The translations under genes and the position numbers were made by a program. A stretch of 64,000 bases of DNA from Tricholoma matsutake (Eukaryota > Basidiomycota > Agaricomycetes > Agaricales > Tricholomataceae), in NCBI GenBank assembly GCA_026075535.2, contig AP026539.1:8680001-8744000 (forward strand), read 5' to 3'. Below the pieces are notes generated by a model. It searched no databases and was not told where the DNA came from. It worked only from the letters and a program-made list of their open reading frames with translations. Shown piece after piece: positions 26,747 to 64,000 of the stretch (position 1 is its first letter; every line of letters starts with the position of its first letter).

Positions 26747-26759
26747 CAAGGGGGTGTCA
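26747..26759 (+). repeat. Left 13-bp terminal inverted repeat
   Basis: CAAGGGGGTGTCA, the inverse of 32449-32461. A run of A follows (AAAAAAAATTAA), and a similar A/T run lies inside the right end. Confidence 0.65.
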
Positions 26760-26993
26760 GAAAAAAAATTAAGGATACCAGGTCATTTTTTTTAAGCTGC
26801 CCAGCAGCAAACTAACTAACTAACTGTGGGAACTAATTACCATATAAGGCAATAATTAATATCATTGTTTGGGCCGTTTCTTCCCCACATGTCGTTGACC
26901 ACTCCCACTTGCTTCACACTTGCACACCCACCCATTGATGCTGTATTCAAGCTGAATACAGTGTAGATGGTACTGGATAACCCATGAGTTTGT

Positions 26994-29900
26994 TTAGCCT
27001 CCCTTGGAAAGGATCCGTTGACTCACCCAACCCGTTTCACATCCAGTGCATTTGCACTTGATAACGTTCGCATTTCGTGATATCTCACTCTCCGTTACTG
27101 CTTGTCCACATGTACATACCACCAGAATTGAATACAAGTCCTGGGCTTTCTGTTTTTGGCCTACCTGTGTCATTGGAGCATCAACAGTGAACTGGCTGTC
27201 CATTGTGGGATCCATGGTTGGCATCGTCGCAACAGTTTGCAGTACTGGGTGATCTAGTATGGGTGGAGGACTACCAGACGTAGAAGGAAAGTCTCCTTGA
27301 TTATCTTGAACTGGTGTCAAGGATTGCGGCAGTATTGGTGAGTTTCTAGCTTCAATATCTTCCACCAACCCCAAAATGATATTTTCGTTGCTCAACAGAT
27401 GCTCGGGCTCCTTATACATGTCACTCAGCTGATTTTCATCCTCACTATCTTCATCCTCACTGCCACTCAGATCCTTAGCTTCAGGTATCACACCACCAAG
27501 GGCCTCTATATCCAACATGTCAGCATCTCCGTCATTGTTGGCATCCCTGTCGCAACATCAGCATGATGCATCGACTATCTAGGGAGACTTACCATAATGT
27601 GAGATGGGAACTATGAACTTTGGAAATAATCAAACCTGATGCATTCTGTTTCTTTGACTTCCGCGTCTTCTTATGTTTGTGATGATTGTTCCACGTTTCC
27701 TTCAGCTGACTTTTTTTGGCATTCATTATCTGCCAAAGGGACTCATAGGGTGGTAGCGAGATGGCTGGATGCTTTGATCGCATGTGATGTGAAAGGTTGT
27801 ATCTCCATACACACGGTGCAGCTGTGGGACAGATAGGGCAATGGATGGGAACATTTGATGATGGGCTGGAAGAAGTTGATATAGCGGCAACGGCATATGC
27901 AAATGGTATCTTGTTAGCACATACAGATTTTGTGGAATCAACTTGTTCACTAGCTCCTGCACCCTTCCCCCTCTTGAGATAATAGATGCAGAGGGGAGAT
28001 GACTGAAGACATAATCCACATGGCTCGGCACTTTGATTAACTGATAGGTCAAAGAGAATGTGTGCAGCCATGTGCTCGAGGACTCTTTGTGCTGACTTGG
28101 GAAGTGCGACTGAAGGAATGCAAGCAGTGCAGTCATTCGAAACCCCTAGATTGTGTGTCACGTGTTCATCTTCACAAAGGAAACATGCTTTGCCTGATTG
28201 TCTACAATTTTAGTTGTGTGCCACAAGTAACAAATCTAGTGTACTTACCTGTCACTTCGCGATAAGGAAATCTATCTGATTTTTTGACATCAGGAATAGA
28301 AATTCCATGGTCCTGTTCAAGTCGTTCAAGAATGGAAGCCCCTAGTGCCATAAGAACACCACTCTTGAACAGATAAAATGGATTCCCAAGTTCCTTGGTT
28401 GAAATGCTTGGGTTGATCAGTTGGATGAGATATCCAGCAACTCGATATGATGTTCCTTGTTTACCTGACCAATGCCAATCATTCTTCAGCTCAGGATCAT
28501 CCTCGATGCTTGCTGGGACCAGGAAGAGCATCTGATATGATATAAACACCAATGGCTCCATGAGATACTCCACCATGACCTGATCAGTGTGATGCAATGT
28601 TGATCACCTCACCAATGCACAGGAATAGATTACCACTACAGTGGAGCAGTGTAGCAATAGGTGAGTCCATTTGCACAACATTTTCACTTGATGCAGGATC
28701 ATGATCAAGCACACTGTCATACATATTGGTTGATTTTACAGCATAGTGCTGGACATTGGCCACACACTTCAATCGATCTGTAGAGCCAGGTTTATTGTAG
28801 TTCTCAAATGCTTGATTAAGATAACGTGCTTTGTAGACCTGTTTTCCATTGAGCTCAAAGCAGGGACTGTGCTTTCCTGATGGATGTTCTTCAGCAACGG
28901 CATCTTCAAGATCTGGACCTGGTGGTGGGTCTGTACTCGAAATGGAAGCATTGACATTGTCCAGGGTATCATCATAGTCATCTGCATCTCGTGAGGCTGT
29001 AATTAGATCCTTGCCAAGTGGAGAAAAGATGTCAAATGTGGATTCCATGACAGAATGTAGAATGTCTGCAAGAAAAGGAAAATCTTCTTCGATCTTGTGT
29101 CTCCCTAGCTTCCAACACGTCTGAAGCACAACTCGAGAGACCTTGACATCACCATGCCATGATGCAGGGTTGATGTGATCAATGTGAGCATGAACAACAA
29201 ACCCAGCTTTTGAGAGAGCAGGAAGCTTCAAGCGTTGTGGCACTTGATCCCAATGCAGATACTTTGCCAGGATAGTTGTGACTTCAGTGGTCCCAGTAAG
29301 GCGAAGACCGAGCTGTAGAAGGTCAAGATTGGTGTCATTTCCAACCATGGTCCTCAAAATTCCAAAGAGGATCTCAAGGCGATCTGTTCCAAGAAGTATG
29401 ATCCAAAAGCTTCCTTCTGGATTGTCGGCCTTAGTCTTTGCAATGCAAAAATAAGCATTCTTGATCATCATCATGATATCGACATAGAGCTGAGTGGGCA
29501 TGAGCTTTGTTCCAGTTTGATCTTCAGCCCAAAGAGCAAGGAGTAGATGCGCAGCAGCACTAAGGTGAACTAGCTGTTCAGACAATGAGAGGTCGATGCA
29601 GATGTAAGGTATCAAGATATGATGAAGGAGTGCTCCCAGCATTTGGAATGATTTTCAAGCCTGTTGAAATCCTGGTAATGCATCAGGTCCTGAATCAGGA
29701 AGGGACCAGATGTCTCGAAGCATATCATATGCCAGTTTTACATCCTGTCGGTCATCAGGGTTTAGCAGGTAGTTAATGTGTGTCAAGGTCATGTTGTTGC
29801 TATGGGAGTGGGAGTGGATGACAGCTGGCTTTAGATGAACCCCATGAACAATTAGTCCCTTATCTTGAAGCAAGAGATTGTGAAGGCATTTGAACACATG

Positions 29901-32154
29901 CTTGTAGTCTTTGTCTGCAGTAAGATCATTATCGCCAACCTTGAGGTTCATGAGAGGAAGGACATGCAACACATCGTAGATTGGAGATGTGGGAGCAAGT
30001 TCACATTTGAACACCAAGCATACAAGAGCTTCACCATGCTGGGACTCGCCATCAGACACAATGCTGATTGTTCTGAGTTTCGATTTTTGGCTGCCTAGAT
30101 ATGCTGTATTAATCAAATCTGCATGCTCCATCCCAGACTTGCGTTTACAGGATCCTGAAATAAGAATTGGACATGCACTGTATACATGCATCTCACCACT
30201 CAAGATACCTAGCGCACCGACAGTTGCCTAATTAAGTTTTGTGAGAAATCAACAACAACCACAATGACTCGAGTCTCGATCACCACCGACCTCAGATGCA
30301 AGATGCACCTCACCTTTCTCAATAGCCTCAAGTAACAGCTCGACTTCCTTCTCAGAGTTAAATTCAAGACTGGTGTTTTTGCTGTGCTCCCAACACAGCC
30401 CTACAATCTTGTTGGTTTCCTCATCCAAATGTGGCCACTCTTTGGCCTTCAACTCATCCAGCATCAACACTTGGTGAACAACATGCTGGCTTTCTAGGAT
30501 CTCAAATATGCTTTGGAAGCAGCTTAGGACATTCACCTCTATTTCCAATACTGTGGGCACAGATGTGGAGACAAGGAGCTTTGGGATAATTGTTCGATGT
30601 TGAAGAGTGCTGAGTGATGGTAGATTCAAAGCACGGTGCGCAATTCCTGCAATTCAAGCACCACCCAATCGCCATAACAGAAGCCCCCACAGCTCATCTT
30701 TCTCAGTATAGTTCTGTGGGTGATATATCTGCTGTGCTGCGTGATCGTACAAATCCAGCAAGTTTCAAATTCCTCCTTTTCATGCAAGATTTACACAGAC
30801 CAATCGATCAACATGTTCCACCCTCCTGCTACCCACAGTGATTACCCATTGCTTCAGATCATCAATTACGACTGCTTTCCCTGCTAACTTTCATGCATCA
30901 TTCAGTTTCCTCAAGCGCAAAGCCTTCACTTCACCCTGCTTTCTCCTCACTAATGTTACCAGCCCTCCAACGCTATGATATGGCAGGGTGGCATTCTCCT
31001 GGACACCGGTTTCCATCCGCTGAAGAACACCTTGTAAGTTTGCATTCTTTGTAAGCATCTCACAGTTCCAACAATGCTCAAGGTTTGGATGCAGCCTGAG
31101 GTTTGTGACACAGGCTTTGGAACACAACACTAAGACTCCATTGGTAACTGCATAATCCCAGGGGTCCCCCAGCTCATTGTGGATACCAAATGGATATGAT
31201 GTATGGGGGCTTTTGCCAGGGGGTAAGTCCACTTGGATCCCACAGCACTGCCGCTTATCCTTCATCCCAGTCTGCTTTGGCCTGATCTGTGTGCCAGAAG
31301 AGGATAACATGGTTTGTGTGCCCTTAGATGGGTCATTAAATGCATCCACATCAATCAGTGAGGGACATCAAGGATGAGCTGTTCATGGTAGGATTGCTTC
31401 AATGTTAGTTGGTGAAGAAAGGGGTGGTGATCTAATATATAGTGAGTTCCCTCTTTTGACTGCCATATAGGTTTATGTACACTTTGTTGATAGCGTCCAT
31501 CAAGCATTCAAGTTTGCCTTTGAGTAAAACACCACTAACTTCATGATAGGTAACAAGGTACTCAAGCAGGCGACATAATCCTATGAGGCCCTTTTCCCCC
31601 ACTTGGACGAGGTGTTGGAGCTCTGAAGGAGGTTTCTGAAGGAGCATATTCAGTGGTCCACCAAACTTCTCCCATGCATCTTCGCCTGCATCCACACATC
31701 CAGCTGGGTTTCCTGTGAAAGCTGCAAGAGGATGCCTTTCATCGGCCACACCAACATCTGTAGAAAGAGCTTCAATGTGCATGCAAAAATTATGTAGAAG
31801 TTTGTGCCCGATTGGGCAGCCAGCTAGGACTTGTGTATTGGATTGTTTGTGTGGTGGACTTCCATCTCGCTGCAGTATGAGGGTGCTGGAGGAACCAGAA
31901 GCTGTGGGTGACCATGTATGTGGGGTAACTAGGGCAGGTGCTGTGACTGTGGATGGTACTGTAGGTGGTCTTGGCTGAAAAAACCTCAATGCATTCTGCT
32001 TCATCTTCTCCACTGCATCTTTGACCTTTTTCTTTCTCAAGTTGATTGTACACTGGGCACTACCCTTGTGTCGCTTGTAATAATTCTGTATACCAACATT
32101 CCCGACGTTGATTCGAGTTTCACAAGCTGGACAGAATACGGTCCCATTCTCCAC
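26994..32154 (-). pseudogene. Large zinc-finger protein, putative P-element-like DDE transposase
   Basis: This spliced gene of roughly 1,300 codons starts near 32154. N-terminus: BED-like finger (CPACETRINVGN then H and C). Middle: SPHTSYPFGIHNELGDPWDYA and LRLHPNLEHCWNCEML. Core: VHQVLMLDELKAKEWPHLDE (first acidic), LISGSCKRKSG, TISIVSDGESQHGEAL (second), DYKHVFKCLHNLLL, NPDDRQDVKLAYDMLRDIW, LLGTDRLEILFGILRTMVGN (glutamate), then NDTNLDLL. C-terminus: paired Cys motifs (CFLC, CTAC, CGLC), a C2H2-like CPICPTAAPCVWRYNLSHHM and a PHD-like CTCG, CKCTGCETGW. The order DE, SDG, DxxHxxKxxxN, DRLExLFGxxR parallels P-element/THAP9 transposases. Stops are TGA at expected Arg: DA*KLAG, LA*KGG, GI*NLL, GA*IAG, QA*KSF, and one TGA for Trp near 31372. 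Confidence 0.6.
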
Positions 32155-32448
32155 TGTCAGTTCTGGGAGTGTCTCTGCCTCCTTGTGTAATTTTAATACC
32201 TGGTAGATTAGACCCTTCTTATTGAATGGAGATGCTTACTGACATCACACATTGTCGTGTACTTGATGCATTCGAGACTTGCAAGTTGCCCAGTGTTTCT
32301 GGGGTATTTTTTTCCAAATGGGGGACTGTTGGGGCTTCTCTTTGGCTCTACACAGCCCTCAGGCACTCAATCATGTGACATTCCAAAAAAAAATTAATGA
32401 GCTGAGGTCTGGACTAACTGACCAACCCTATATGGTAGTTTGAACACG

Positions 32449-32461
32449 TGACACCCCCTTG
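32449..32461 (-). repeat. Right 13-bp terminal inverted repeat
   Basis: TGACACCCCCTTG, exact inverse of 26747-26759. It lies about 295 bp upstream of the gene's first exon. Confidence 0.65.
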
Positions 32462-32710: not shown

Positions 32711-34457
32711 TTATACCGGAAGCTGAGGATTAATGAATAGATTCACAAACACCACGTATGTTATAGCGCAGCCAGCTGCAAGACATGCACCGCCGATCCA
32801 CGCGCCTTTCATAACCTCAATATCTCTGGGACCCAAGGTAATCACGTTGAATGCGCTTGCACCCTTGCTGAGAACGCAGCTATTGCAGTAACATCGATCA
32901 TAGAAATTACTGAACTGGAATAAACAGGAAATGACGATCCATATTGCATTAACGGATGCAATGATTTTCCCAAGACGACGCAGAATGATGGACAGATGTC
33001 TCGCGAATAACGCAGAGGTGCTTCTCGGCGATGCAGTTGTCGAGTAATAGGAAAGGAAACTGGAGAGTACCAGGATCATCCAGCTAATAGTGGACAACGC
33101 GCCGTATAAGATATAGGTTCCAGACCGACACCCGAGTCCTGAAGATACCATTCATGTTAGGATCAGATGATCAATTCTGACGGGGTTCCTTACCGGTTGT
33201 TGGTGTAAAGTAGGCAACAAGAATTCCTGAGCCAGAAGTTCCCCATTGCAAAGAAAGCGCCAGCATGGACGCAACCAAGAACCTGGACCATATGTCATGT
33301 ATCCAGGGACTTCCTCGACTAGCCGTGGGCTCTCCGACTGGGAGGAAAGAGGCGTCTACTTCTTTCAGCGTGTCCATCCTATTGAGCTTGAAAGATTCCT
33401 CGGTAGTCTCCCAGTCGACCAGTGGATCAACAAAATGATGACTGCATGCGTGATTCGAAGCTGTACGAAAGACGCCGCAAACGTCTTCAACGGCTCGGGT
33501 CCAAGGTAAGAAGCGTGCATAATTGTAGATCGGAGCAGTGCTCTGCTCGTCGAATAGTAAGGGGTCATGACTGGTTAATGAAAGTGAAATGCCATGTTTA
33601 ACAGACACCGAGCTGGCCAAAACAAGCTTGCCAGATTCAGTTGCGACGTATGCTATTTTATTGGCGCGTTCGATTGCTTGACGCAATCGCAATGAGTCAC
33701 ACTTTGGGGAAAGCTGTAGCCAACCCAGGACAATAGTCAACAACCACAGCCACAATGATCCAATCCCTTGACCGGTCGACTGGATTGATGCAGTCGGGTC
33801 ACCAGTGAAGGAATCAATCAGTGTTAAACAATATGCGATGATGACCCAGGCAGTAGAAGCAACCGCAGACACAGACCATGTATGGGTAAAATCCAGCAAT
33901 CTAACTAGTTCTCTCCACCATTTGTCGTTCTCAGGAAGTACAACGAGCGAGGTCAAGAGGGAGCCCGATGTGATAACCTTCAGAGGCGACTGCTGAAGGC
34001 TACTGAGAACTTGGACAGCATATCTGGTGTTTGGGTAATTGATTGCTGCGAAACGTCGAGCTATCCATCGGCCGTTAAGGATAGTTAATGCCAAGGAATA
34101 GGCTGCCAATGTCGGGGAGCCAACAGTGATCAATGCAGACACGAGATTGTCGAACTTGTCGTTGGCGCCAAACGGCAACTGGGATATCAGCGCCAGCCAT
34201 GGGAGCAACCATGAGCTGAACTGCTGGGAAAAGACGGTCCAGCTGAAAGGCTCTGGGGCTGCACCGCACGCGCGGAGACAAAGATCATAAGTAATGCCTG
34301 TCGCAGTTGAGATGTCCGACACGGGGCGACCAAGGCTATCTGTCCCACCCACAGATCCCCAGGTGCCATTCTGGATCTCCTTCAAGCATGTTTGAAAGTT
34401 GGTGGTGGCAAACGCGAAAGGGAGGATGAACAATATGATAATGATCACTTTCGGCAT
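32711..34457 (-). CDS. Conserved basidiomycete multi-pass membrane protein
   Basis: Two exons: 34457-33194, then 33138-32711 after a GT-AG intron (GTAAGGAACC to TCTTCAG) that joins ACC-G/GA-CTC in frame. The product is about 564 residues with no internal stop. It starts with a signal peptide (MPKVIIIILFILPFAFA), then an extracytoplasmic Cys-containing segment (TGITYDLCLRACG). Next come paired hydrophobic segments (FSSWLLPWLALISQLPFGA, TLAAYSLALTILNGRW, SAVASTAWVIIAYCLTLID, GSLWLWLLTIVLGWLQLSPK), a soluble loop, and a second membrane cluster in exon 2 with a Cys-rich loop (YDRCYCNSCVLSKGA). I know the family as a common mushroom membrane protein without a function. Intact frame and normal CG content mark it as the clearest host gene here. 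Confidence 0.85.
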
Positions 34458-35994
34458 TACTTTATCGAAACGTCAATATCATTATAACAAATATTTAAGT
34501 AACACTCACGGTATGATGGAAGTGCCGAGTAGCGTACTTTCTAGACTATTTGGCAGACGGCGAAGATTCAAGTTATCATCTCGCCTTTAATAGTCAAGTC
34601 CTGGGTGATTCGAAACGGACAGAATCTTGAGCGCTTATGATAAGCTTAAAATAACAGCCGCAACATGACAAAGAATGAACCATGGCCTGAATCCTGTGCG
34701 GGTCCAAGGAGAAGTCATCCATGTTTGGTAAATAGATGCATGCGCAACCCTGGCCACAGCACAGCTTATGCACTGATGAAAACATTCTTTGGGGCCGACG
34801 TTCAGCAGAACATGGGAACGATAAAAATGAAAGCACATGGCTTCCCTCCACAGCATGTTCCGAGTTCTCAGCATTGAGAACGAGGTTTTATGACTGAACG
34901 CTATTGACCCAGCAGATTCTTCGCAACACGTGATTTTCGGGAAAAGCCGTGCCTTGTAGATTAAATATACACAATGTAGCTTCCACGTTCATGTACGCGT
35001 CTTCTTCATCACATCAAGCACGCGTCAAACTCTCGACATATTTACTTCTCTCGAGGTGCATCAAACTTCTCTGTCTTACTGATCTATTTCCCTGGTTACT
35101 CATGAGAGTCCGGAACAGAAGACTTGTACCAAATGCAGAAGGTCATGGCCATGTGACGTGTCGAACTTTAGAAAGATGTGTGATGGCTTTTCTAAATCCT
35201 GTCTGCCATGCTTGAAAGGAAGTGCTGAAGTGACTGCAGAGTGAAAACATGGACAAGGTGATAAAGAAAATGTGCCACCCACTCCTGGAGCTCAGACTGA
35301 GGGGAATGATGACCTTTCTGATTTGTATATTGTGGACCTTGACACCTTGGGTTCTCTTCCCAAGGGCACTTTCTGAATCAGAAAATGTAGTTTCTCTTGA
35401 TGCTCGGGTGGATCTGTCTTCTCTCATGACTACAGCCATGGGTAGCAGGACTGTTTCAGACTCCATTGCCAAAAAAATATGGGGACAGCTGAAATATTGA
35501 TTTGTGTAAGTTTACCATATTATGACCTCACATCTAATTTGGTCTTGTTATATGATGCTCATTATCTACAAGCTACCATAGTGTCTACTGTCACAAGCGC
35601 ATGCCGACATCCTGATTCATGTACCACTGTGCTCAGGTGAACTCACATCAGCACAAGTCCAAAAAGAGTGGACATGAAGGGGTGAAGTCTTGTGACAAAG
35701 ACACAATGGATGTATTTGATTGCTCTGGGTGGCTGCACATCTAGGGTATAACATGGTGTATACCATGGGTAAATTTAGACAGACCACAACCGTAACTCAT
35801 TACACCATACCTGCATTGCACACCATATTCACAGGTGCGGTGCAAAGTCACGGTTTATATACAAGCACCACAGTGTATCAACACCATGGTCTACCGAGTA
35901 ACCATCTACCAAGACTATGGGTTTGACCTGAGGTTTTTCTACACATAAGCCTATAGTCCATGCCAAGATAACTCCTGAAAAATACTACAAACTA
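34458..35994. other. Intergenic region with a Cys-rich coding fragment
   Basis: This holds the presumed promoter of the membrane-protein gene and little else. One plus-strand frame at about 35104-35376 reads THESPEQKTCTKCRRSWPCD then KSCLPCLKGSAEV and an acidic tail broken by TGA stops. The two CxxC pairs suggest a decayed zinc-binding exon of unknown origin. At 35745-35910 A+T-rich sequence contains short palindromes such as CATGGTGTATACCATG. Confidence 0.35.
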
Positions 35995-47773: not shown

Positions 47774-50700
47774 ATGCATCGCCCCGATGCATTTGAAATC
47801 GTATACGACCAAAGTCCGTGACTTGAATGCGATGCGGTGCAGCAGTGTGCCGTCGGTGGAATTCCTTGATTAACCGAGGGGCATTTACATCAGACTCTTT
47901 GACCCATGAGTTCTCCTCATACCCATAACCCTTCCAATGTACCAAATACTGGAGTTTTCCTCGACGCAAATGGCTGTCCAAGATTGACTCGACTTCATAT
48001 TGGGGTTCTCCCTCGATCACTGTAGGTGGTGGTGGTGGGTGTGAATGGCGTCCCGGGAACAGATCTGGGGGAGCTGGAAGCAATTTGACGACATGGAAGA
48101 CAGGATGGAGTCTGGACATGGAGGCTGGGAGGCGTAGACGATAGGCATGTGTTCCAATGCACTTGACAATGGGGAAAGGTCCCAAGAAGCAATGAGCGAG
48201 TTTCTTGGATGGACGTGTAGTGGAGATGTCACTGGAGTCAAGATAAACTCGATCACCAACCTTGTACTGAGGGGTTGGGGAGTGGCGCTGGTTGTAAAAT
48301 CGCGCCATGTCGTCCTTTGCCTTTGCTAAGGCTGCCCTTGCCTCCTCCAAGCTATCCCTCATGCGTTCTGTGAACTCATTCACTGTCTCGATGTGTGAGG
48401 GAGTTTGGCGAGGTTCAAATCCCATGCGTGGATGTCATCCAGTGTCTAAGAGGAAAGGGGTCTGTTGAGTGGAAGCATGGACATGGTTGTTGTACCCAAA
48501 CTCGGCCAAAGGAAGGAGATCATCCCAATCGTCCTGGCGTTCATTGACAAAGAGGCGGATGTACTGCTCCAGTTCCTGGTTGACTCACTCTGTCTGGCCA
48601 TCAGTTTGTGGGTGATAAGCAGTTGAAGCGAGGAGTTTGATCCCCAGGAGTCGGTACAGCTCACGAGTGAACTCTGCCATGAACTGAGGGCCACGATCCG
48701 AGAGGAAGGCACCAGGAAGTCCATGTAATTTCCACATGTGGTGGAGGTAGAGTCGAGCGGCACCTAGGGCACTGACAGTGGTGTGAGTGGGAATGAAGTG
48801 AGCGCATTTTCCCACTGAGTCAACTGTGCACATCACCGCATCAAACCCGTTTGACTCTGGCAATTCCACCACAAAGTCAACGCTGACAACATCCCAACAA
48901 CTCTCTGGAACAGGAAGAGGGTGTAGCTCACCAATAGGCTTGCGATGAGGGGCCTTGGTGCATAAGCAAAGGTCACAAGTGCGACAATACTGACCAATGA
49001 GCCGTGACATTTGTGGCCACCAATAGTTCCGTGAGGTGAGCTCCAAGGTCTTCCAGTGTCCGGGGTGGCCAGCAATCTGTGAGTCATGGTGTTGGGATAT
49101 GATGTGCCGGCGAAGGTCTGGGTCATTGGGAACATAGATGCGATCCCTGAAATACAACAAGTCCTCCTTTTCAGCCCACTCTGCCACACGTAAGGAAAGG
49201 GTCGATCCCTTCCTCAGTTCTTTAACAGCTCGGGTGACAACATCCTCATATAAACCGCTACGGTTTGCGCGACGAATGTCACGTAGAATGTCCCGCTCCT
49301 CGCCCTGGGGTACGATGCCTTCCAGTGCCCAAATGGTGAACAGGTCTGGCTGCAACAGCACAATGTTTTGGTTGTCACTGCTGCCATCCCCATGGTCTGC
49401 ACATCGGGATAGGGCATCGGTCTTCCCCATGCTGCGACCCGGACGGTGGTGCAAGGAGAAGTCGAATCTAGATAGATACAGGGACCAACGAGCTTGACGA
49501 CGGTTCAATTTCTTGGCCGTCATGAAGTACTCGAGGTTCTTGTGATCCGTCCAAATTTCCACCTTGTGTTGGGCACCCTCAAGGAAGTGTCGCCACTCCT
49601 CAAGCGCACGCATTATCGCCAACATCTCCTTGTCATGGATCTCGTAGTTTCTCTCTACAGCACTAAGGCTTTTGGAGTAGAACACAACAGGATGCCACTT
49701 CTGGTCCTCCGGAGACTGCTGAGACAACACAGCGCCCATCGCAAAGTCAGAACTGTCAGCTTCTACACGAAAAGGACGCGAATTGTCAGCAAAGGTAAGG
49801 ATCGGAGCGGAAGTGACCATCTCCTTAAGCTTTTCGAACGCCTCCTGTTGTGCATTATCCCACCTCCATGCCTCCTTTCCTGTCAAGTCGAACAGCGGTC
49901 GTGCATGATGTGAGAAATCCTTGATAAAACGCCGATAAAAATTGATGAAGCCCAGGAAGGACTGCACCTCCTTCTTGTTCATGGGCGTCGGCCAAGCTGT
50001 GACCCCGTTTACCTTGATAGGATCCATCTCCACTTGACCCTCCGAGATAATCAGGCCGAGGTACTCAATCTTGGTCCTTTCAAACTCACATTTGTCCTGA
50101 CGAAGGTAGAGTTTGTACCATCAAAGTCGCTCTAGGACGAGGCGCGTGATGCGACGGTGCTCTTCAACCGTGCGAGTGAAGATGAGGATGTCGTCGAGAT
50201 AGATGCAGACAATGCCTTCGAGGATGAGGTCATGGAAGATGTCATTCATCATCGTCTGAAAGGTGGCAGGGCTATTAGTAAGGCCAAAGAACATGACAAG
50301 CAGTTCAAAAAGACCACGGTTGGTACAAAAGGCTGCCTTCCACTCATCTCCCTCCTTTATCCTTACATTATTATAGCCCCAACGGACATCGAGCTTGGTG
50401 AAGTATCAGGCTCCATGGAGCTGGTTTACGAGTTCGGAGATGAGGGGTAGTGGGTAGCGATTTTTGACCGTGATGTTGTTGAGTCTTCTGTAGTCTTGAA
50501 CCGGTCGAAGTGAGCCATCCTTCTTCTTGACAAAGAAAAAGGGAGAGGCCATGGGTGACTTCGATGGTCGAATATGTCCAGAGTCCAGGTGCTCATCGAT
50601 GAACTGGTCAAGCTGCCGTTGTTCCTCCGGAGAGAGAGTATAGACCTTGCAGGATGAAGGGGTTGCGCCGGGGGTGAGTTCGATCGCGTGATCCCATGGC

Positions 50701-51680
50701 TTACGCGCAGGAAGAGAGTCGAATGACTCCTTGGAGAACACATCTTCAAACTCATGGAGATGAGGGAGTAAGGAGTTAGTAGAGGATTTAGCAGCGTTGT
50801 TTTTGTGGAAGGCCTCGGCGAGGCATTGGGATATGTTCGATGTGGCACACACCTCATGCGATGAGCGAATCGCAGTGTAGAAGATCCGATCACCCTCCTC
50901 CACTTCCTCTGGGTCCTCATCATCATCATCCGAGTCTGGCATTAGATCAGGAACCCCTTCCAATTCCACTTCAGGTATAGGCAGGGGTCCAGCATGACAC
51001 TTCTGAGTTCGTTGTATTGCCGCCTTCTGTCCACGACGTTCTTGCCTGGCTTCTGTGAAACATGTCCGACAGCGGGATGGACATCGGCTCATGGTAACCT
51101 CCCCGGTGCGCCAGTCGACCTCTGGGTTATGGTCTCGAAGCCATGGATATCCCAAAATCGCCTTTTGCTTTCCTAATTGAGTGACAGCAAAAAGGGCACG
51201 CTCACTATGATCTTTGTAATGGAGAACCAGGTCTACAACCTCTCGGATGGCACCAGCTTCATTTGGGGATCCATCCACGTTATATACAGGTATCGGACGT
51301 GAGAGTGAGCAAGTATTTAGACGCTGTTGTTGTACCAGATGGGAATCAATGAAGAGACCAGTCGCACCAGAGTCCAGGAGCGCAGAGACACTGAGTATCT
51401 GTCCAGTGTCGGTCGTCTGCAGTTCGATGGCTAGGTTTAAGGAATGTGCAGAGGGAGTGGATGCCACAATATACTTGCGTGGTAGTTTACGCTCCCATGA
51501 TTTAATTTTGGGACGTGGAGTAGAAGGAGAGATGGGGAGAGCAGGTACATCTTTAGCCAACTTCGAAGGGTCAGAGAGGGGAGCAGTCACAGAAATGGAT
51601 TCATTCTCCAGGGATTCAACTGACAAGACTTCAAAGCAGTTATGGACAGGCAGTGAGGGCATACGATTCACTCGCTGCAA
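47769..51680 (-). pseudogene. Young Gypsy Pol: PR-RT-RH-IN-chromodomain
   Basis: One frame of about 1,300 codons. Protease active site LLDSGATGLFID; spacer with acidic DSDDDDEDPEEVEEGD; RT with [20 protein letters not shown] and catalytic YLDD; RNase H with EADSSDFAMGAVLSQQ and GKTDALSR. Integrase has HHCC zinc site (CRTCDLCL), SVDFVVELPES, FLSDRGPQFMAEF and YHPQTDGQTE. Then GPFPIVKCIGTHAY and a chromodomain (YEVESILDSHLRRGKLQYLV, HWKGYGYEENSWVKES). Four stops interrupt it, all TGA for conserved Arg: 50406-50408 (HGA*YFTKLD), 50121-50123 (ERL*WYKLYL), 48585-48587 (QTE*VNQELEQ) and 48435-48437 (DTG*HPRMGF). It overlaps the end of gag in the -1 frame, with an internal ATG (MPSLPVHN) as a possible restart. 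Confidence 0.95.
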
Positions 51681-52786
51681 ATAGGAAAATCCTGCTCCTC
51701 TACAACTTCCAGCTTAACCTCCTCTGCAACTTGATCCTTTGCTTCCTCAACATCTACAAGTGCCAACAAATCTTGCAGGAGTTCATCTCGTCCCTCGGGG
51801 GTGAGCATGTGGATGTCCTGACGATGGGGACACGCTCCAGCCCTGTGTCCAGGTTCCCCACAATGGTAGCAGAGATCCAACTTACGTGCACGGCTGCGGG
51901 CTGCATCAACATCTATTGGTACTGGGACATTGACGGCTGGTGTGGGAGTTTGATGAGCAGGAATGGGGTTAGGGCGGGGGAGGCTTCGATTGAAGGTGTA
52001 GGGTGTATGAGTGGTAGTTGGAGCACGGAATGCAGCATTAAACACCGCATTTGTGAGTCGGTTCTCGTCACAGAGTGAAGCAGCTTCATACCAAGCAAGG
52101 ATATCATCGTCCGCTGGGCGCCCTTCCAACATCTGTGCAATCTGGTCCTGAATTTCTCGGTTGAGCCCCCGTCGGAACTTCACCACCACTGGTAACCCAC
52201 TCCCATACCCTGCCATGTCCACCAAATCCTTGAACTCATCGATATAGTCGTCCACGGATCGACGTCCCTGGTGGTAAGTGGATGACTCAAGTCGTGTCAC
52301 TGCTCGGTGGCATTCATTGAGGGGGCAGAAGTGGCGTACGAACTCAGCTCGAAAGTCACCCCAAGTGGAGAAAGGTAGAGAACCAAGTTCTTTAGTTTGA
52401 CGTAGGATACGGTCCACATAGAGATAGGCGCGTTCAGATTTCATGTATGTGAAGGCCCAATAAATTTTTGCAGCCTCATCGACGAATTGATGCGACTGGA
52501 GACTAATGTATAACTCACAGGAATTAAGGAATGCACATCCCTGCGCACGTGCACCATTAAATTCGGCGGGGGGGGACGGTTTGATCTGGGCACGTTCCTT
52601 AGTGGACGCGTTTGGCAAAACATCGTTGTTGGGTGCGCTTGGAGTCGTGAAGGGGGAATTATTAGTCGTAGGGTTAGCCTGGAGGGTCCTAACGAAGTTT
52701 TCAATCGTAGATTTAAGCGAGTTGATTTGCGCGTGCATTCCGGAAACGTCGCTTTCAAGCGCGTCAAAGCATTCTGATGCGTCCAT
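51668..52786 (-). CDS. Young Gypsy Gag
   Basis: An intact frame of 372 codons from ATG at 52786. N-terminal coiled coil (MDASECFDALESDVSG), Gag core (AAKIYWAFTYMKSERAYLYV, PFSTWGDFRAEFVRHFCPLN, DLVDMAGYGSGLPVVVKFRR, QIAQMLEGRPADDDI), Pro-rich linker, zinc knuckle CYHCGEPGHRAGAC, and an acidic tail. Pol begins in the -1 frame across its last codons, a usual arrangement for controlling the Gag:Pol ratio. I see no clear slippery heptamer at the overlap. Confidence 0.93.
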   Translation of the reverse strand: MDASECFDALESDVSGMHAQINSLKSTIENFVRTLQANPTTNNSPFTTPSAPNNDVLPNASTKERAQIKPSPPAEFNGARAQGCAFLNSCELYISLQSHQFVDEAAKIYWAFTYMKSERAYLYVDRILRQTKELGSLPFSTWGDFRAEFVRHFCPLNECHRAVTRLESSTYHQGRRSVDDYIDEFKDLVDMAGYGSGLPVVVKFRRGLNREIQDQIAQMLEGRPADDDILAWYEAASLCDENRLTNAVFNAAFRAPTTTHTPYTFNRSLPRPNPIPAHQTPTPAVNVPVPIDVDAARSRARKLDLCYHCGEPGHRAGACPHRQDIHMLTPEGRDELLQDLLALVDVEEAKDQVAEEVKLEVVEEQDFPICSE

Positions 52787-52940
52787 GTCGCTAGGGAGCG
52801 CGTTTGGCGAAAATGGCGGCGCGATAAAGGCGAGAGTATCTGGAACGGTGTGTAGGGACTCTGTGGAGCTTTGGGAAGCGTCATCCAGTCCGTACCTGCC
52901 TATTTTGGGCAGCGCGTTCGCGATTTTCGGGCCTTAGGGG

Positions 52941-61660: not shown

Positions 61661-62113
61661 AGTTGTCACAGTTGCCATTTTTGGCCCATTCTTTAGTCAT
61701 TTTTAAATGATTTTTGATTTCATTTTGATTTCATTTTTTTTATAAATGAACTGAGAATGAAATGAAAAATGGATCGGAAGATGATCATTTTTGACAGTTT
61801 TACAAAAATGATCCAAAAAATGATCATTTTTTCCCATTCTGGCACTGTGCCTGACATGCAAAATGCATTTTTGCTGGGTGTTCACAGTAAGCATTTCTCC
61901 CATCATTTTTAATTTCATTTTCAGCTCCCTTTTGTTTGTTCCTCTGCCAAATAAGTAGATGAAAATGAGCCAACAATGAGTTTGAAAATGAGCCAAAAAT
62001 GGCCCAAGAATGGCTACCATGAACAACCCTAATAATCAGAGCATTCATGATAGGCATTTTTCACATCATTTTTGCCTTCATTTTTTGATCATTATCCAAA
62101 AATGATCCAAAAA
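61661..62113. mobile_element. A+T-rich inverted-repeat element between G2 and the second Copia
   Basis: Left end ATTAGAGTTGTCACAGTTGC and the inverse of about 62000-62033 (ATTAGGGTTGTTCATGGTAG) pair, as do the following GCCATTTTTGGCCCATTCTT and GCCATTCTTGGGCCATTTTT. The interior is made of TGATCATTTTTTG-type repeats. A further 80 bp of similar sequence (62034-62113) truncates the Copia pol. No target duplication was resolved, so the outer boundary is uncertain. Confidence 0.5.
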
Positions 62114-63239
62114 TGAAGCCAACAGTAGCATACATCAAGCAACCAATCATTTCTCGGTACTTGGTTTTCTTGGTGGGTGTGAGGATTGTAGGAGATACGG
62201 TGGGTGAGTCAAGGCTGAGGTTGATACCAGGCTCCATGGGGGTGACCATAGTACGGGCATCCTGGAGACTGAATCGAATGAGAATTTGTTCGATGTAAGC
62301 CTGTTGACCTAATGAAATAGTTTTAGCTTCGATATTGCATGTGATGCTAACACTGAGAAGCCAGTTGATGTCACCAAGATCTACGATCTCGAAGTGCTCA
62401 TTGAGCTGCTCCTTGATCAGGTTTGATGAGTTTGTTGAGTCGGCGATAATGGTGAAATCATCGGTGGCAGCAGCAATGATCGTGTATTCGCTACCACTAC
62501 TGAATTTGTAGAAAACGGCTTCATCTGCAACCAAAACCGAGTAGCCAAGCATCAATAAAATTTGTTTCATGTTTGCATACCAATCGTGAGCACCTTGTTT
62601 CATTCCATACATGGGTGTGAGAAGTTTGCAAACAACTTCACGTTCCTTAGCGAGTTCCGGAGGTAGTTTCCAGTATTGCTTGTAAAGTGGTGGGAGTTTC
62701 ATATAAAGGTCAACACCACCTTGGAGATGTGCATTGAGGTAAGCGTTCTTGGCATCCACTTGAATAATAATGGAATTGTGGTGTGCTCTGAAAGATAAGA
62801 GAATGTGGAGGGATGTGGCTCTAACGGTGGGAGTAAATGTTTCGGTGTAATCAATGCCGAATTGTTGCTTGAATCCTTTCGCGACAAGTCGAGCTTTGTG
62901 GTGGACGACTCGGCCTTCAGAATCGTGCTTACGACGGAATATGTAGCAGCTAGGGATGATGTTGACACCAGGCAGCAGGACAATGAGCTCCCAGGTATTC
63001 AACTTCTCGATTTGGAAAAGCTCCGCCTCGATCGCTGCTGACCAATCATCATGCTCGGCACCCTTCAGCACCTCCTCAAGTGACGGTTCATCCTCGCTCG
63101 CTAGCATTGTCGACTCCATTGCCTCTGTAAACCACTCCTCCTCACTCATATTGTGCTCTACTCCCCCTGGTTCAAGGTGTCCGTCATCGTCAACAACCAG
63201 AGCGCCTTCAATCACATTGGCAGCGCTACATGAAGTGGC
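62114..63239 (-). pseudogene. Second Copia: reverse transcriptase
   Basis: Open over most of RT: DWSAAIEAELFQIEKLNTWE, VARLVAKGF-type block (HHKARLVAKGFKQQFGIDYT), ETFTPTVRATSLHILLSF, IIQVDAKNAYLNAHLQ, YGMKQGAHDWYANMKQILLM, and a catalytic region ATDDFTI where YVDDxxI is usual. Then HFEIVDLGDINWLLSVSI, ISLGQQAYIEQILIRF and YREMIGCLMYATV. It is truncated at 62114 by A+T-rich repeat before RNase H. This is a different family from the Copia at 58045-61588. Confidence 0.85.
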
Positions 63240-64000
63240 AACTCAGTTGCACTTCCCATGACCATATTGGGCTTTGTTGACTGGTGTGAGACCTGCGAGG
63301 GAGTTTCATCGCATGGTTCTTTGATGTGGAGGAGCTATAGGTGTGTTGGATGGAGTTTGCAAGGTTTCTGGACTAACACTGGGCATTGCTGGTAGATTTT
63401 CACCTGTGTTATTGACGCTTTTGGGTTCTGGATCCTTGGGGGTATTTTTGTTGGGTGTGGACAAGTTATCAGAGTTGTTGGGAGTCTGGGAAGTGTCAGA
63501 TTTGGTAAATACATCTTCCACCGCCTCAATCAACACTTCATCAGGCTGCAAAGCCCAATTTCTGTCAGTGTACACATCCCTTTTGATACTGACCAGTCGT
63601 TTCTTAGGCCAATATATACAAAAACCTTTCGATTCATCATCATAACCCACGAAATGAGCTTCGTCAGCTCATGGATCCAATTTCCCTGCATCAAGCTGTT
63701 TCACCCAGACTGTCGCGCCCCATTCAATTAGCTGCAACAAATCCGGTTTCTCCCCCATTGCAACTTCATGAGGAGTCTTCAGCTCAGATAGTCCATGTGT
63801 TGGTGCATGGTTATGCAGCCATACATCATGGCAAACTGCTTCAGCCCACAATAATCGAGGTAGGCCTGCAGCAATCATCATTGCATGGGTGTCATTGAGA
63901 TGGGTTTGGTTTTCCCATTCGATCACGCCGTTAGATGCTGGGGAGTCGTGGACAGTGAGGTGGCAAACCATTCTGGCATTTTCAAGGTGTTTGTTAAACT
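63240..64000 (-). pseudogene. Second Copia: integrase C-terminal part, partial at window end
   Basis: From the window edge: ENARMVCHLTVHDSPASNGV, then IEWENQTHLNDTHAMMIAAG (E of the D,D,E triad region), LPRLLWAEAVCHDVWLHNHA, HEVAMGEKPDLLQLIEWGAT, HFVGYDDESKGFCIYWPKKR and the Pro/Ser/Thr linker to RT. TGA for Arg occurs at LDP*ADEAHFVG, TMR*NSLAGL and KCN*VATS. The rest of the element lies to the right of the window. Confidence 0.83.

Follow-up and report, generated by a model that had tools for sequence, protein, structure and literature searches.

The window, a 64,000-nucleotide stretch of the Tricholoma matsutake genome (contig AP026539.1, positions 8,680,001 to 8,744,000), carries a gene-containing element bounded by perfect 13-bp inverted repeats (Table 1; coordinates are those of the window). 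We conclude from dispersed repeat copies, fixed 8-bp target duplications and empty sites that these repeats are the ends of a DNA transposon and that its family is mobile. The element itself is very probably a P-superfamily transposon of the cut-and-paste type, present here as a decayed copy. An initial annotation, made from the letters of this DNA alone, had located the same repeats, taken them for transposon ends and read the enclosed gene as a P-like transposase. The current study bears out these proposals, the first of the two readings through 8-bp duplications, empty sites and matched stretches on 13 of 13 contigs, and the second through a family consensus that matches a TNP-type RNase H profile.

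The genome searched comprises 161,040,721 bases in 13 contigs. Exact copies of the 13-bp motif number 295 (135 + 160), against 7 (4 + 3) for a reversed-motif control. In the window alone, with up to two mismatches allowed, the motif has two matches against a mean of 2.15 expected by chance; a 27-bp end pattern with up to three mismatches has 125 genomic matches, and its control none. The ends of the window element are common to 12 other repeat-bounded pairs and to coding relatives of 5.6–5.7 kb, and short derivatives carrying the same ends are also present in the genome. Both ends have the same 13 bp, and the sequence inside differs between them: in most displayed copies of the window subfamily, ACCATATAGGGATGGTTAGTTAG or a close variant of it follows at the 5' end, and AAGGATACC...CTAACTAAC at the 3' end. 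L043 has a CATATCAGG stretch 28 bases inward at either end; L041 and L054 have it at one end each. On both sides there are GTTAGTTAG-like runs, in direct orientation when read along the element, which are candidate binding sites.

Target duplications were scored in 17 repeat-bounded copies, namely the window copy, 12 repeat pairs of less than 8 kb among the listed places of the 295, and those four of the ten fetched coding loci in which both ends of the window type could be called. L051–L058 stand outside these counts, having one end only or, in the case of L057, repeating L041. An 8-bp duplication is perfect in 7 of the 17 copies and agrees at 7 or more of the 8 positions in 10, whereas 0 of the 272 pairs of mismatched flanks score as high as 7/8; perfect duplications of 4–7 or 9–12 bp were found in none of the 17. 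The initial annotation had named a fixed-length duplication in other members as the thing to look for, and 8 bp is that length. Coding copies have such duplications too: within this set L063 agrees at 8/8 and L059 at 7/8, and outside it L068 at 8/8 and the copy at C4:12589913-12596027 at 7/8. L063, a transposase-coding copy of 5,662 bp, has the duplication TGGCTCAG and an empty site. At least 4 of 11 joined flank sets match through the junction (40 of 727 candidates scored), and the five aligned empty sites agree at 69/72 and 70/73 positions (both L063), 67/74 (L048), 69/72 (L040) and 60/72 (L042). Two repeat-bounded copies, L049 and L050, have inner open frames that look by eye, without a profile search, like nested long terminal repeat retrotransposons; they were ruled out as extra coding copies, with zero window blocks matching them.

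The outer CAAGGGGG and the rule of 8-bp duplications are common to at least three subfamilies. A second one is represented by L068 (6,003 bp), which has about 35–40% core identity to the window element, ends CAAGGGGGAAC and the duplication CCCATGGG; it was left out of the duplication counts because the scan from which it came demanded at least 7/8. The L068-type end pattern, CAAGGGGGAACYRGG, has 25 genomic occurrences, and CAAGGGGGCACYRGG, the third pattern, has 62, with 0 control matches for each. Ten pairs were fetched with their flanks unseen at the time of choice (4 of the 7 CAAGGGGGAACYRGG pairs besides L068, and 6 of the 19 CAAGGGGGCACYRGG pairs): the 8-bp duplication is perfect in eight of them and reaches 7/8 in the remaining two, compared with 0 of 90 in the control. 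One of these two, at C4:12589913-12596027 and 6,115 bp long, encloses a transposase match. In addition, the start of a CAAGGGGGCAC-type element at G000:C8:8451469-8452443, with the duplication TGAGGAAC, lies within a CAAGGGGGTGTCA-type end, 67 bp inward, which shows the insertion of one subfamily into another.

The window copy itself has no target duplication, as the initial annotation had seen and had called its weak point: 3 of 8 flanking positions agree. The flank immediately to the left matches a short tandem repeat present elsewhere, and the right flank matches itself only. Two paralogues, L094 and L095, run through the insertion point, reading CATCCTAACAAC and then TCTTCAG; in the window, CATCCTAACAAC is followed by the element, and past the right end there is neither CTAACAAC nor TCTTCAG. 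These empty paralogues confirm the left edge of the element. Probably, the sequence on the right has been replaced or lost since the element inserted, and this would account for the missing duplication of the copy. L095 (G000:C7:7488530-7488700) offers a further observation. Its first repeat unit is continuous at the insertion point, and its second unit has 8 extra bases there, with CCTAAGTTAGTAACAAC in place of CCTAACAAC. The extra bases hold an inverted copy of target nucleotides, resembling a hairpin-type excision footprint; this is one case and could be coincidence.

Turning to the protein, the motifs quoted in the initial annotation are all present on the minus strand, and in the core of the spliced gene D, D, D(2)H and E follow one another in the order of P transposases. 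A P-like core is well supported, and pooling of members alters the outcome of the profile comparisons. A Pfam scan of the eight window blocks gave no family above cut-off, with the best score (Retrotran_gag_2, E 0.001) in the C-terminal cysteine-rich block. Among 18 members, the first catalytic block matched TNP-like_RNaseH_N in 10 (best E 0.0014), and twelve other families appeared in one or two members each; of five spliced cores, four matched it (0.00037–0.046) and L060 did not. A 32-row consensus matched the same family at 8.6e-7 over residues 56–184, which span both Asp motifs, with 29.8 bits where the cut-off is 24.6. The reversed consensus had no Pfam match, and TNP-like_RNaseH_N was the sole family whose score rose with pooling. 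We take the TNP-like label to mean P/THAP9. TNP is the name used for P transposase in PMC7776569, and D(2)H is part of the P-superfamily signature in PMC8230255 (here and below, published systems are described from excerpts of the sources cited). The proposed catalytic residues of the window protein are spaced by 114 (Asp 1 to Asp 2) and 226 (Asp 2 to Glu). The Drosophila P transposase residues D230, D303 and E531 (PMC7776569) give computed spacings of 73 and 228; the two proteins are alike in D-D-E order, in D(2)H and in the second spacing, but not in the first. Drosophila P further differs in its 31-bp repeats and in its THAP and GTP-binding domains (PMC7776569), neither of which was detected in the window protein; THAP in particular had no Pfam match in the window coding blocks. 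Between Asp 2 and Glu, where P has its GTP-binding insertion, the window protein has a stretch of corresponding length, although no GTP-binding model came up in the scans. An NCBIfam search gave no match, and searches for relatives gave 83 pattern matches in viral contigs and 143 in prokaryote genome contigs, with 0 confirmed in either.

The N-terminal finger has the form C-x2-C-x17-H-x5-C, and its Cys and His are kept in 5 of 5 relatives aligned there (L059, L060, L061, L063 and L068). In the C-terminal clusters, at least 80% of the relatives that align at the marked positions retain the Cys and His found there. The initial annotation had called the finger BED-like and one of the C-terminal motifs PHD-like. 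The spacings are conserved, but no Pfam finger model, BED and PHD included, scored above cut-off over the N- or C-terminal zinc motifs, so that both terms refer to spacing alone. The finger and the C-terminal clusters may help to bind the ends. In a P-type scheme, the N-terminal C2HC finger would take the place of the THAP domain of animals and, together with the cysteine clusters downstream, would help to bind the two differing subterminal regions; the RNase H core would cut at the ends and join these to the target at sites separated by 8 bp, and an insertion domain would lie between Asp 2 and Glu.

Several points weigh against this assignment. First, 7 of the 17 copies fall below 7/8 for the 8-bp duplication: the window copy, L060 (2/8), L061 (3/8), L047 (2/8), L042 (6/8), L046 (6/8) and L049 (3/8). 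The right end of L060 carries two mismatches, and the flanks of L049, compared in register for the above score, agree at 6/7 when seven bases are compared. Second, the terminal repeats that the initial annotation expected on other family members were found in part: five of ten coding loci have both ends, three (L062, L064 and L065) have one end only and two (L066 and L067) have neither, within the 6.5–7.2 kb covered per locus. Third, singly scored cores lie below the cut-off of TNP-like_RNaseH_N, the best reaching 21.2 bits. The match to the C-terminal counterpart, TNP-like_RNaseH_C, is weak: it is seen in 3 of 14 members (best 0.015) and, with E 0.57, over the Glu motif of the consensus; a genome search with this model gave zero matches, with controls also silent, and is hence uninformative. 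Fourth, the distance between the first two Asp residues is longer than in Drosophila, and the P GTP-binding model, which we take to be PF21788, matched in no scan of members, spliced cores or consensus. Searches of Protein Data Bank chains by sequence gave chance matches only, and a single-sequence model of the core, with a predicted local distance difference test score (pLDDT) of 33.6, was too poor for a fold search. Fifth, hAT and Zisupton elements also make 8-bp duplications (PMC12730594), and P and hAT transposases were assigned to one RNase H-like clade (PMC3985635). THAP was not taken as defining for fungal members, since it is said to be animal-restricted (PMC7776569).

Some of these points would fit a separate superfamily, sister to P, an explanation that we consider unlikely. 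The CAAGGGGG elements would then form a fungal superfamily of their own, in which the THAP and GTP-binding domains were lost or never present, fingers were recruited at both protein ends, and cutting with hairpins on the flanks is conceivable. The unmatched GTP-binding model, the longer first spacing, the lack of a THAP match and the weak C-terminal RNase H match are all compatible with it. However, the N-terminal RNase H match of the consensus exceeds the curated cut-off, the D(2)H signature and the Asp2-Glu spacing fit P, and Repbase already files fungal P elements under P (PMC3164196).

Decidedly improbable is a transposon of the hAT superfamily, which would cleave by way of hairpins on the flanking DNA while likewise duplicating 8 bp. 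The ends begin with CA, which is a hAT trait, and the 8-bp insertion of L095 at the window insertion point resembles an inverted-nucleotide footprint. Duplications of 8 bp are usual for hAT (PMC12730594), and its place in one clade with P (PMC3985635) also speaks for it. Yet no hAT family was found in the Pfam scans of window blocks, members, spliced cores and consensus, and pooling raised TNP-like_RNaseH_N alone. There is very little to be said for an element of the KDZ group (Kyakuja/Dileera/Zisupton), which is known from mushrooms: Kyakuja and Zisupton do occur in Agaricomycetes and Zisupton likewise makes 8-bp duplications, but Kyakuja is described as having no inverted repeats and 7-bp duplications (PMC12730594), and no KDZ family appeared in the same four sets of Pfam scans. 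A domesticated host gene between chance repeats has a negligible probability and is refuted for the window copy, low dN/dS (ratio of non-synonymous to synonymous substitution) between lineages notwithstanding, by the matched stretches on every contig, many with in-frame stops, by the empty sites and by a dN/dS of 0.85–0.96 against the nearest copy. Likewise, single-copy genes at conserved syntenic positions, which the initial annotation had named as a contrary outcome, are excluded.

We return to the window copy, very probably a decayed P-superfamily element, and its gene (Table 1). The intron has GT-AG borders in 8 of 9 printed copies, the window included, and a GC donor in L021. A detail that the initial annotation had not mentioned is an in-frame TGA that interrupts the gene; this stop marks the window copy as dead. 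The stop codon is found in 3 of 19 displayed copies (the window, L016 and L031) and is absent from the other 16; L067 and L068 are out of register at this junction. The block with the third catalytic motif has its genomic matches on all 13 contigs. Between lineages, dN/dS is 0.10–0.17; the high values are those of close pairs, the nearest relative of the window copy being L059, and the other close pair, L062–L063, standing at 0.49. This contrast is taken to reflect selection while the elements were active and relaxation after insertion. With L060 as outgroup, derived changes were polarised over window positions 28593–30227. The window copy has 39 such changes, of which 33 are of C-to-T type (13 of them at CpG), 4 of T-to-C type and 2 transversions; L059 has 61, namely 48 (17 at CpG), 10 and 3, respectively. 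The C-to-T excess in both copies, partly at CpG, is a pattern like that of repeat-induced point mutation or methylation decay, and CpG hypermutation of T. matsutake repeats has been described (PMC6980582).

Table 1. Features of the element and of its gene in the window
Feature	Positions	Strand	Remarks
Whole element, decayed copy	26747..32461	-	5,715 bp; gene on minus strand
Terminal inverted repeat CAAGGGGGTGTCA	26747..26759	+	Element 3' end relative to gene
3' subterminal region (GAAAAAAAATTAAGGATACC ... AACTAACTAACTAACTG)	26760..26826	.	Common to same end of other copies
C-terminal tail	26994..27557	-	Ends CTCG...CKCTGCETGWV (27024-27116), PHD-like spacing
C-terminal cysteine-rich block	27589..28209	-	C-x2-C repeats, CPICP...H...H
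Conserved coding block downstream of core	28202..28603	-	
Coding block with TDRLEILFGILR and GND	28584..29654	-	At least 119 matched genomic stretches
Proposed catalytic Glu	29373..29375	-	Glu in 28/32 members
In-frame TGA breaking gene	29655..29657	-	Between second and third catalytic motifs
Coding block with SIVSDGE and DYKHVFK	29658..30227	-	
Asp of D(2)H motif	29907..29909	-	D in 28/30, H in 28/29 members
Proposed catalytic Asp 2	30051..30053	-	Asp in 29/30 members
Intron, GT...AG	30228..30290	-	63 bp; splits first catalytic block from second
Coding block with LMLDELK	30252..30653	-	First catalytic motif
Proposed catalytic Asp 1	30456..30458	-	Asp in 28/30 members
Second coding block, no known domain	30894..31367	-	Matched in 10/10 coding loci, ~26-94% identity
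N-terminal open frame	31435..32235	-	Carries finger at 32050-32133
5' subterminal region (CGTGTTCAAACTACCATATAGGGTTGGTCAGTTAGTCC reading inward)	32400..32448	.	Sequence unlike 3' end
Terminal inverted repeat CAAGGGGGTGTCA	32449..32461	-	Element 5' end relative to gene

As for the surroundings, a 433-residue open frame (33171–34472), with no Pfam match at 0.001, adjoins the element. Two further stretches, 48585–52933 and 62061–63242, hold open frames of a retrotransposon, with gag, integrase and reverse transcriptase RNase H domains, and an RVT_2 frame apart from them.

Elements of this kind have precedents in Basidiomycota. P-1_PSt of the rust fungus Puccinia was described in 2011 as the first for Dikarya, and the P elements of Melampsora have autonomous and non-autonomous copies with 8-bp duplications (PMC3164196). 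By this account, P-1_PSt, P-1_MLP and P-2_MLP (Repbase) resemble the window family in host phylum, superfamily, duplication length and the presence of both autonomous and non-autonomous copies, a likeness drawn by description and not by sequence; the host of the window element is an agaric. In a mushroom, the P-type class 'P-Fungi' has 10 copies and 46,557 bp in Pleurotus ostreatus PC80, known to us as a table entry only (PMC12387193), which gives a mean copy length of about 4.7 kb; the class also occurs in Phakopsora and Daphnia annotations. Zebrafish P-like elements have 13-bp repeats and 8-bp duplications (PMC7776569, PMC10983969), and Pdre2/THAP9 shares with the window family these two features as well as internally deleted copies. 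It differs in its ends, CATACCTGTCAAC, in its THAP domain and in the 12-bp subterminal inverted repeats of Pdre2, which were not seen in that form in the window family. No printed description of the window family was found in the open-licence literature, a search that did not cover Repbase. The label 'undescribed' given in the initial annotation thus holds for the particular family and not for its kind, given the rust elements. What is new is this family in Tricholoma; P-superfamily elements with 8-bp duplications were already known in Basidiomycota.

Few eukaryotic transposons have been studied as well as P elements, and the knowledge of them comes mostly from animals. The present family, in a mushroom genome, is defined by its three subfamilies, its precise ends, its coding copies and a duplication of 8 bp. 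With it, two questions come within reach: by what means a P-type transposase acts when it has no THAP finger, and whether dependence on GTP is an ancestral trait. For T. matsutake itself, in whose genome 25.4% is given as 'unclassified' repeat (PMC10211490), the family may put a name to part of that fraction.

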